A stretch of DNA of 64,000 bases from Saprospiraceae bacterium (GTDB lineage: Bacteria > Bacteroidota > Bacteroidia > Chitinophagales > Saprospiraceae), in contig JAHDFB010000010.1 in the NCBI GenBank assembly GCA_020628475.1, positions 1-64,000 of the forward strand. Direction: 5' to 3'. Shown one piece after another: positions 11,167-57,257 of this stretch. Position numbers and translations under genes: made by a program. Every line of letters starts with the position of its first letter. Position 1 is the first letter of the stretch. The notes under the pieces were generated by a model that saw nothing but the letters and a program-made list of their open reading frames with translations, was not told the DNA's origin and made no database searches.

Positions 11167-11508
11167 ATGCTAAACTCAATGATATTTTTACAAGCTGCTC
11201 CAGGTGGAGAAATTAGTCAATTCATCTTTATTGGAGCAATAATCGCGGTATTCTATCTTTTCATCATGAGACCTCAAATGAAAAAACAAAAGGAACAACG
11301 TGATTTCTCTTCTAGCATCAAAAAAGGTGATGAAGTCGTAACCGCATCTGGTATTGTAGGCAGGATCAATAAAATCGAAGGTCAATATATGATTATTGAA
11401 TCTAACAAAACTTTTATTAAAGTTCTAAGCTCCTCAGTGTCAAAAGAAATGACGGATAGCATTAAAGCTAAACCAGAAGAAAAAAAGAAAGGTTTATTTG
11501 GAATTTAA
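11167..11508 (+). CDS. yajC: Preprotein translocase subunit YajC
   Basis: FYLFIMRPQMKKQKEQRDFSSSIKKGDEVVTASGIVGRINKI. Confidence 0.93.
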   Translation: MLNSMIFLQAAPGGEISQFIFIGAIIAVFYLFIMRPQMKKQKEQRDFSSSIKKGDEVVTASGIVGRINKIEGQYMIIESNKTFIKVLSSSVSKEMTDSIKAKPEEKKKGLFGI

Positions 11509-11528
11509 TCTTCTAAATGCGGAGAAAT

Positions 11529-11559
11529 AAAAAAAGGCTTCATGTAAACATGAAGCCTT
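11529..11559 (-). terminator. Strong hairpin whose T tract lies on the minus strand
   Basis: AAGGCTTCATGT-AA-ACATGAAGCCTT perfect 12-bp stem (11534-11559) with A7 at 11529-11535. Confidence 0.7.
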
Positions 11560-11606
11560 AAACTTTGATATAACACCCTTAATTGAGAACGTTTTCCCAA
11601 CAACGT
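11529..11606 (-). ncRNA. Candidate small RNA (~75-78 nt) transcribed from an orphan minus-strand promoter
   Basis: Promoter CTTG-N21-TATATTTG (minus, 11643..11611) ~75 nt upstream of a hairpin + T-run terminator; no ORF between. Confidence 0.45.
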
Positions 11607-11610
11607 ATTA

Positions 11611-11643
11611 CAAATATATATAATATGTAAAGTATTATACAAG
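11611..11643 (-). promoter_or_regulatory. Bacteroidota-type promoter (TTG-N21-TATATTTG) firing leftward into the yajC-CotH gap
   Basis: Plus-strand CAAATATA at 11611-11618 and CAAG at 11640-11643. Confidence 0.5.
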
Positions 11644-11880: not shown

Positions 11881-13389
11881 ATGATATTAATGAGAAATCT
11901 AGTACTGTTGCTTCTGATAGTAAACCTTTGGTCTACTAATAACTTCGCTCAAGGTGAATCGCTTTTCGATGATAGCTATTTACATGAAATACACTTCACG
12001 GCTGTAGATACGAATCTTATCGATGGACAGAAGATCTATCAATTAGTTAATATGACTTTTGATGGTATACAAATAGACAGCATTGGTTTTAAGGATAAAG
12101 GCAACATCTCTAGTGGTGTCCCCAACAAGAAACTACCCCTGAAGATCAAAACAAATAAATACATCAGCGGTCATGAATATGATGGTATCAAAGAATTTAC
12201 GCTGCATAATAATTACCAAGATCCATCTATGATGCGAGAAAAATTGAGCTACGATATATGTCGTGATCTTGGTTTACATGCTTTGAGAACGGCCTTCACC
12301 AAAGTTTACATAAACAATGAATACTGGGGTTTATATACCATAGTAGAAGGTAAAGATGAATATTATAAGCTGCAATTTGGAGATCGGGATGCAGATGCCA
12401 TAGAATCGCTTGATTTCGGAACGATGTGCTATTTAAGTGAGAATCCAAGTGATTATGATTATGACATCAGTGGACTCCCCTACTATATTTTGGAAAACGG
12501 TCATTCGGAATCTGCATTTGAAAAATTTGCAGAGATGATTGATGTAGCCAATAACACATCCATAGATGAATACATGGACATAGTCCCTGCATTGATCAAT
12601 TTAGATGATTTCATTCGTTATCAAGCCGCGAATGTATATATGATGAATTTTGATTCTTATATCGGTTTCAATGGCAATCAAATATACATGCATGACAGTC
12701 TTACGAATCAATGGCAAATAATACCTTGGGATTTTAATGCTTCATTAAATCTTTGGGATAATGGCAATGGAACAGAGTATGCATCCGAATATCCTCTATT
12801 TCCAAATAGAATTACAGAAGGATGTATTGCCAGCAAACTAAATGACATTGCCTATCTCAAGGATCAATATTTAGAGACGATGTGTCGTCTATCGAAAGAA
12901 CTGGCAGAACCTGAAGATATGATAGAGCGAATTGATGCCTATAAAAGCCAAATTCAACAAGCAGTCTACGATGATTGGAGAAAAGTGTATTCTAACGAAG
13001 AATTTGATCTTACCACTGAGTTTGGCACCTTTTCCATAGATGGAAATTCATTCGAAGGTTTAAAAACCTTCTTTGATCAACGTGCACAGAAAATCAATCA
13101 AGAAGTGGAGAGTGAGAACTATTTATGTACTCCTTCGAATAGTACAAGCATAGAAGACGGCACTTCTGCTATTCTTTATTATCCAAATCCTGTACAAAAT
13201 TATCTGTACTCCACTCAAGACGCGTTGAAGACCATTACGATTTTTGATGCACAAGGAAGAAGATTAAAACAAATACAATCCCCTACCTTCCCAATTTACC
13301 TAGGCGATTTAGGAAGTGGTATCTATTTCTTAATTACTGGAAAAAACAACAGGGAATATCATTCTAAATTGATCATTCAAAGAGATTAA
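11881..13389 (+). CDS. CotH kinase family protein with T9SS type A sorting domain
   Basis: DSIGFKDKGNISSG, PLKIKTNKY, MREKLSYDICRDLGL, NNEYWGLYTIVEGKDEYY, WQIIPWDFNASL; C-term ILYYPNPVQNYLY. Confidence 0.87.
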   Translation: MILMRNLVLLLLIVNLWSTNNFAQGESLFDDSYLHEIHFTAVDTNLIDGQKIYQLVNMTFDGIQIDSIGFKDKGNISSGVPNKKLPLKIKTNKYISGHEYDGIKEFTLHNNYQDPSMMREKLSYDICRDLGLHALRTAFTKVYINNEYWGLYTIVEGKDEYYKLQFGDRDADAIESLDFGTMCYLSENPSDYDYDISGLPYYILENGHSESAFEKFAEMIDVANNTSIDEYMDIVPALINLDDFIRYQAANVYMMNFDSYIGFNGNQIYMHDSLTNQWQIIPWDFNASLNLWDNGNGTEYASEYPLFPNRITEGCIASKLNDIAYLKDQYLETMCRLSKELAEPEDMIERIDAYKSQIQQAVYDDWRKVYSNEEFDLTTEFGTFSIDGNSFEGLKTFFDQRAQKINQEVESENYLCTPSNSTSIEDGTSAILYYPNPVQNYLYSTQDALKTITIFDAQGRRLKQIQSPTFPIYLGDLGSGIYFLITGKNNREYHSKLIIQRD

Positions 13390-13425: not shown

Positions 13426-13659
13426 TTAATGGCCAGTACCAATTGTTTTGAAACTAACAATACGCACGGCTGCACCCCACATTTGAAAGCCAAAGTCATC
13501 GTCTAAATAAACAATTCTACATTCGATGATAGCATCTTCTTCTTGAAATTGAACGGGCATCATTTGAGGTCTTAATTGCTCCCCCTGATCACTTATAATA
13601 GACCAAAAACCACCTTCTATCTCCTGATATTTAGCTCTTCCTCGCACTTTTACACTCAT
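13426..13659 (-). CDS. Hypothetical 77-aa protein, translationally coupled to the S24 regulator
   Basis: Start overlaps the upstream stop by 4 nt (13656-13659). Confidence 0.65.
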   Translation of the reverse strand: MSVKVRGRAKYQEIEGGFWSIISDQGEQLRPQMMPVQFQEEDAIIECRIVYLDDDFGFQMWGAAVRIVSFKTIGTGH

Positions 13660-14498
13660 CTTGATCTATTTTGTCGTAACATTTTTTCAATCGTCTGATT
13701 CAAACTTTTAATAAGGTCATTCTGGGTCTTAAGCGTATCTCTTAATTGATCAATTTCGCAGTGCAACGCATTTCTAATATTCTTCGGGGAGGACATAAAA
13801 TGACTGATTTTCATCTTTATACTCCAAATTTCGACTACATCGTTTATGGGAACTTCTCTTGGAGGATAATAGTCATTATCAGAATGTAATAATAAGGTAC
13901 CATTAATATCAATTCTGTTTTCCAATCGTTTAACCACAATATCATCTCTAGTAATTAAGACATATACATGGTTATTCTTAAGAGAATGTCTCCACGATTC
14001 CTTTTCCGTAAAAGAACAAATTACGCGCTCTCCTTCATACAGCGTTGGCTCCATACTATCACCACTAACATCAAAGGATCGAAAAGTCCCCGATTGAAAA
14101 TAAGGATCTGGCAATGAAAATGTCGGAAGCTCTCCAATAAATTCAGGATTAGTCAACTGTCCCCCGTAACCTGCCTGAGCTGCATAAGGTACGTGCACAA
14201 TTCTTTCCTCGTTGTGCTTATCTGCCACCACGACTAAAACATCTTTGTTCGTTGCTTCATCATCACATTGAAAGGGTGCACCATGGCCAATGAATAAATA
14301 AGAAGGGCAAATGTTATATTTCTCAACTGCTTTACGAGCCAGTTCAATGGTAACATTTCTTCTACCTTTAAGAATTTCGCTCAGACTTTGTGGTAAGTAA
14401 TCCAGGCTGATGGCGAACTGCCTACTGGAACGGACAAGCCCCTTAGAAATGACTTCATTGTGGCATGTAATAAAACGTTGTGTGACAATATCTTGCAT
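13656..14498 (-). CDS. XRE-type HTH / S24 peptidase (LexA/CI-like) regulator
   Basis: N-terminal HTH; SGDSMEPTLYEGERVICSF catalytic Ser motif and DDIVVKRLENRI Lys motif. Confidence 0.85.
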   Translation of the reverse strand: MQDIVTQRFITCHNEVISKGLVRSSRQFAISLDYLPQSLSEILKGRRNVTIELARKAVEKYNICPSYLFIGHGAPFQCDDEATNKDVLVVVADKHNEERIVHVPYAAQAGYGGQLTNPEFIGELPTFSLPDPYFQSGTFRSFDVSGDSMEPTLYEGERVICSFTEKESWRHSLKNNHVYVLITRDDIVVKRLENRIDINGTLLLHSDNDYYPPREVPINDVVEIWSIKMKISHFMSSPKNIRNALHCEIDQLRDTLKTQNDLIKSLNQTIEKMLRQNRSR

Positions 14499-29381: not shown

Positions 29382-29675
29382 ATTTGATTTATCCGAAGAT
29401 CAATCCTCGACACCCTACATCCATGTATGAATTCCGGTCCAATCAAAATAAGTCGTGAAACCATGATAAGTTTTTATTAAATCTATAATGCCCCCTTAAG
29501 AAAATTGTCAATCCTAATACCTCATATTAAAGATAATTTTAATATTTGGATTAAATACAACCTCCACTACCATCCTGTCAAACAGGAAGTTACACAGGAA
29601 TTTTAAAATTCTTGTTCAATTCAGGAACGAAATCACCTGCTCATTACACTAATAAGAAAACTCAAAGCGCGTATC

Positions 29676-38766: not shown

Positions 38767-39049
38767 ATAAATTGATTTATATAGTATCTACTAAATTGCT
38801 TGTTTTGAAGTCAAAGAGACACAAGATCAACAAAATTAATATTAATTATTTAAATAATATGTTTTTACAGTACATATTAACAAAATTGACAATGTGTTTT
38901 ATGAGCGAACATACAATTTTAAAGAGTCGTTTAAATCCAATTTCGCTTCCTTCATAACATATGAATATCATTCATAGATAATTGATCAAGAAATATTTCC
39001 TATTCCTATCTGAATAATTACATTTGCTCGGAAATTTTAAATCTATAAG

Positions 39050-57196: not shown

Positions 57197-57257
57197 AAGC
57201 TGGCACGATATTAGCTGCTAGTAATTTACGTATTAAATAAATCATTAATATATAATT

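Follow-up and report, generated by a model that had tools for sequence, protein, structure and literature searches.

The minus strand of the gap between yajC and the following gene very probably carries a free-standing gene for a trans-acting small RNA (sRNA), as predicted from its start and stop signals, its conservation among sister species and a fold common to the three species that carry it. The window, by which we mean the whole stretch of 64,000 nucleotides analysed here (contig JAHDFB010000010.1 of a Saprospiraceae bacterium, genome G000), leaves 372 bp between the two plus-strand genes: yajC (11167–11508), which lies outside the unit and converges on it with a stop codon ending at 11508, and a gene for a CotH-domain protein with a T9SS sorting tail (11881–13389), which begins at 11881. 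Direct reading of the minus strand gives, in this order, CTTG, 21 nt, TATATTTG, TAATACGTTGTTGGGAAAACGTTCTCAATTAAGGGTGTTATATCAAAGTTT and, at 11559–11534, AAGGCTTCATG-TTTA-CATGAAGCCTT with a tail starting TTTTT; the RNA body between the region of the −7 box and the terminator comprises about 47 nt. The first-pass annotation had described CTTG-N21-TATATTTG on the minus strand of a ~370-bp gap, which was borne out (11643–11611). The pattern [CT]TTG-N19-22-TAnnTTTG, with a perfect stem (9 bp or more) and a T tract no farther than 150 nt downstream, occurs once in the 64 kb on both strands and in none of 20 dinucleotide shuffles.

The −7 element TATATTTG (11611–11618, minus strand) is of the type TAnnTTTG, which at −12 to −5 constitutes the sigma-A signal in Flavobacterium and the Bacteroidota (PMC9723704). 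It is identical in three species, and the −33-type element CTTG (11640–11643, minus strand) reads TTTG in both relatives, G001 and G002. The spacer between the two elements measures 21 nt in G000 and 20 nt in each of the relatives, so that all three species display an own promoter of the phylum's type, TTTG/CTTG-N20-21-TATATTTG. A scan for promoters of the E. coli type did not list it, as expected for Bacteroidota. Because the TAnnTTTG box is placed at −12 to −5, position +1 falls on 11606, in agreement with the start previously suggested near that position, and a small RNA of about 78 nt is predicted (11529–11606, minus strand), whose start, deduced from the position of the box (PMC9723704), is uncertain by ~2 nt. 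The intrinsic terminator (11529–11559, minus strand) consists of an 11-bp stem, the loop UUUA and a U tract. A hairpin with a T tract had been correctly recognized before, but its length of 12 bp does not hold for the RNA, in which an 11-bp stem encloses a 4-nt loop and a twelfth T-A pair would leave a loop of only 2 nt.

The same unit was found in the same position and orientation next to yajC in G002, a member of the same genus, when 60 related genomes were searched for yajC and the sequence 3′ of it was inspected. A covariance model built from the G000 and G002 copies, from which G001 was excluded, detected a third copy in G001 (E = 1.5e-10). The three units are alignable from the −33 element through the T tract, and the flanks on both sides align poorly; the unit indeed lies at 11529–11643 as first annotated, but the conserved region is slightly larger, at about 11525–11643. 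RNA identities amount to 0.84 (G000–G002), 0.73 (G000–G001) and 0.82 (G002–G001). Between G000 and G002 the nucleotide identity of yajC is 0.63 and that of its fourfold-degenerate sites only 0.24, i.e. neutral sites are saturated. As the RNA retains an identity of 0.73–0.84 in spite of this saturation, the unit is under strong purifying selection. Conservation beyond the hairpin had been set beforehand as a test of the sRNA gene; promoter, 5′ hairpin, linker and terminator are all kept in the two sister species, far above the neutral level of yajC.

The hairpin could alternatively be the (possibly two-way) terminator of yajC, with the promoter-like sequence upstream being incidental. It is located 25 nt past the yajC stop with no other terminator after it, and G003, a further member of the genus, has a two-way terminator 3′ of yajC. 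Nevertheless, we regard this explanation as very unlikely: the T tract is confined to the minus side of the stem, whereas AAACTTTG follows on the plus side, and promoter and RNA body are conserved as well. Moreover, the association with yajC is not constant. In G002 the yajC stop lies about 80 nt earlier and the hairpin is thus farther from yajC than in G000; in G001 the 594 bp that lie beyond the terminator contain no yajC, and the unit adjoins the S24-regulator operon instead. Because the G001 unit has no yajC beside it, we do not take the unit to be the terminator of yajC, and the earlier view that the hairpin suits a leftward transcript better than yajC termination is strengthened. We also give very little credit to a cis-acting element, either antisense to a yajC read-through mRNA or serving as leader or attenuator of a minus-strand gene. 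Such a role would fit the convergence on yajC in G000 and G002, but not the G001 unit, which is not beside yajC; furthermore, no minus-strand gene is present downstream, where transcription would enter the antisense strand of yajC. The conserved gene order is S24 operon (minus), sRNA (minus) and yajC (plus), the gene of the S24-peptidase/CI-like regulator (13656–14498, minus strand) being a conserved neighbour outside the unit. Only in G000 does the CotH-domain gene separate the sRNA from the S24 operon; in the three relatives it is not found here.

Folded singly, the three RNAs adopt the same predicted architecture of a 5′ hairpin, an unpaired linker and the terminator. In G000 the 5′ hairpin domain extends over 11573–11608 and the linker over 11560–11572 (both minus strand); the hairpin loop is AACG (AAAG in G001), and the outer helix pairs AUAC with GUGU/GUAU. 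Should transcription begin precisely at 11606, the RNA would not include the two outermost pairs of this hairpin. In a structural alignment made by hand all pairs of the 5′ domain are kept and four carry changes on both sides (U-A/A-U/A-U, U-A/U-A/A-U, G-C/G-C/U-A and G-U/U-A/C-G), a covariation comprising few events in three sequences only, with a one-base bulge in G001. The terminator stem covaries, and RNAalifold applied to a MAFFT alignment credited two-sided changes to terminator pairs only. The whole G000 RNA folds far below shuffled sequences (z −4.9), mostly owing to the terminator; for the 5′ domain alone the comparison with shuffles yields p values of 0.05 (G000), 0.004 (G002) and 0.10 (G001), which is clearly better only in G002. 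A small peptide as the product was ruled out, since no reading frame is common to the three species: the open frames differ, stop differently and are each broken in at least one of them. The first annotation of a ~75-nt stretch devoid of an ORF is consistent with this result, as no frame is both open and kept across the relatives, and its interpretation as a small RNA gene is supported by the conserved signals, body and fold predicted here. Selection on the DNA only, i.e. on an operator/promoter cluster without a functional RNA, would agree with the finding that no upstream DNA is better conserved than the −7 box and the operator-like repeat, but would leave unexplained why the linker is invariant, why the 5′ hairpin keeps its fold and why a terminator is attached, and appears highly improbable.

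As far as the searched genomes go, the predicted unit is confined to one genus, in which three of the four genomes searched (G000, G001 and G002) carry it; completeness is 61% for G000 and 51% for G001, and additional copies are possible there. In G003 the gap between yajC and the S24 gene is devoid of the unit, and a degenerate remnant was also ruled out because the alignment is no better than that of shuffles. Protein identities group G000 with G003 and G001 with G002, and the unit is thus found in both clades of the genus; most simply, it was present in the genus ancestor and apparently lost in G003. That G003 lives without the unit speaks against the sRNA reading.

Matches of model R1 in 298 genomes of the order, read at E values from 1e-6 to 1e-3, proved to be ordinary terminators, and a terminator-free model (R2) was therefore used. 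R2 detected only G000, G001 and G002 among 398 genomes of the family and no additional match among 395 genomes of the class. An exact pattern searched in 84,980 species returned only the records corresponding to G001 and G002 (named Saprospiraceae MAGs), the remaining matches being chance hits without promoter and hairpin; viral contigs provided chance matches only. Matches of the core pattern GGGAAAACGTTCTCA in 199 family genomes, with one mismatch allowed, also look like chance when read in context, lacking promoter and terminator, and a candidate second partial copy in G000 (L033) was rejected, being an AT-rich match of promoter type that lacks the RNA body. At the gathering cut-off, Rfam 15 contains no family matching the window, including GibS, 6S and bacterial SRP RNA. 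The best GibS score of any ortholog is 24.8 bits versus a cut-off of 115, and the weak matches to suhB, CsrC, Arrc14 and GibS fall far short of the cut-offs and are mostly inconsistent between orthologs.

Invariant across the three species are the promoter box TATATTTG and, within the linker, UAUCAAAGUUU. The latter is the longest invariant stretch of the RNA body, and we propose the linker as the pairing (seed) region. Pairing in trans is preferred because experimentally tested Bacteroidota sRNAs of like make-up, GibS and Rfp18, act on mRNAs. The unit shares with GibS and other intergenic sRNAs of Bacteroides thetaiotaomicron the intergenic location, an own promoter and an intrinsic terminator as well as a conserved single-stranded stretch and an often narrow phylogenetic range (PMC7366714); of the 49 high-confidence intergenic sRNAs of this organism, 27 are strain-specific (PMC7366714). 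In contrast to GibS, which is 145 nt long and has a 5′ seed (PMC7366714), the RNA predicted here has about 78 nt, is structured at its 5′ end and carries its seed-like linker in front of the terminator. Rfp18 of Flavobacterium psychrophilum is likewise a hairpin-rich sRNA of a phylum with TAnnTTTG promoters, and is widely conserved within one genus; unlike our candidate, and compared by description, it is predicted to pair via its third stem-loop and affects metalloproteases (PMC9723704).

Exact-seed searches for the sites AAACTTTGATA and CTTTGATA-N-ACCCT revealed no conserved mRNA target. In G000, AAACTTTGATA directly adjoins the start codon (ATG) of a metalloprotease-like gene (L154, contig C87, about 1500–1516); this possible target site was set aside, as it may equally be a promoter box. 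In G001, AAACTTTGATATTACCCT upstream of ccmB (L144, 1000–1035, minus strand) is nearly complementary to the linker of the sRNA and AGGGU; the site, which is part of a 3′ UTR and sits just before a terminator-like hairpin, was rejected as a target because it is absent from G000 and G002. The lack of a conserved target in these searches would be in line with an RNA that binds a protein instead of pairing with mRNAs, in a 6S-like manner or as a decoy of an RNA-binding protein, and the conserved 5′ hairpin with its AACG/AAAG loop could form a protein site together with the conserved linker. Although the candidate resembles the phylum-wide 6S RNA in being small and structured, it is far shorter, possesses no long bulged hairpin with a central bubble and matches no Rfam family. 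We therefore consider protein binding rather unlikely and retain the trans-pairing sRNA.

The core of the sRNA promoter is embedded in an operator-like inverted repeat, ACATATTA-N10-TAATACGT (11603–11628, minus strand), which spans the −7 box. The repeat agrees with the genus motif ACATATTA-N10-TAATATGT in 15 of 16 positions (0 of 2000 shuffles), its spacer containing the −7 box; the match is weaker in the relatives (13/16 in G002 and 12/16 in G001). The motif reaches a density of 11–19 sites per genome in the genus. Across four genomes the form ACATATTA-N8-12-TAATAY has 58 matches versus 9 for the reversed control, the spacer being nearly always 10 nt, and ACATATTA-N1-14-TATATTTG has 17 versus 1. 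Inverted-repeat sites in the window are located at 11603–11628, 29522–29547, 38837–38862, 38872–38897 and 57228–57253, and others at loci including L182, L199, L203, L205, L170 and L207. Of the 35 sites inspected, 33 fall in intergenic DNA, and for 29 an ORF starts no more than 250 bp away. Judged from their translations, the linked genes comprise pepP and rpoN as well as those for an NtrC-like regulator, a cell-wall amidase and an RlmI-type methyltransferase, all of these being orthologous cases; others encode a cytochrome-c-peroxidase-like protein and secreted proteins. A number of the genes recur in two or three species.

This genus-wide repeat looks like the mark of an undescribed regulon and is presumably bound by a dimeric factor. 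The sRNA probably belongs to a regulon, since its −7 box sits inside the repeat. The sRNA promoter also resembles that of the S24-peptidase/CI-like regulator, which carries ACATATTA-N9-TATATTTG in the window and, in general form, ACATATTA-N9-13-TATATTTG in four of four species (window 13656–14498, L002, L117 and L065). This box is consistent with self-control of the regulator or with its belonging to that regulon. One candidate for the factor is the S24 regulator itself, but the spacing in its own promoter agrees less well with 10 nt. The apparent one-genus range, the apparent loss in one member and the placement of the core promoter in a recurring operator-like motif extend the first-pass annotation.

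We propose the following scenario for the unit. RNA polymerase with the housekeeping sigma factor would start at about 11606, proceed leftward and terminate at the hairpin and U tract (11559–11529). In the resulting ~78-nt RNA, a single-stranded linker rich in A and U would connect the 5′ hairpin with the terminator hairpin at the 3′ end; this linker might pair with mRNAs in trans and alter their translation or stability. A transcription factor might switch the RNA together with a regulon of envelope, secreted and regulatory genes. More speculatively, the sRNA, specific to this genus, could serve an undescribed global regulon as its RNA arm. A factor acting on ACATATTA-N10-TAATATGT would then switch the RNA together with rpoN, the NtrC-like activator, secreted proteins and the cell-wall amidase, while further mRNAs would be tuned by the UAUCAAAGUUU linker; we offer this as a tentative possibility.

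To our knowledge, few sRNAs of the Bacteroidota have known roles, and none has seemingly been described in the literature from Saprospiraceae. The candidate presented here is defined by comparison alone; its borders are clear, and both a pairing region and an operator are proposed for it. Its confinement to one genus and the apparent loss in one lineage would make it a clean case for how narrow-range sRNAs arise and get wired into an existing regulon.
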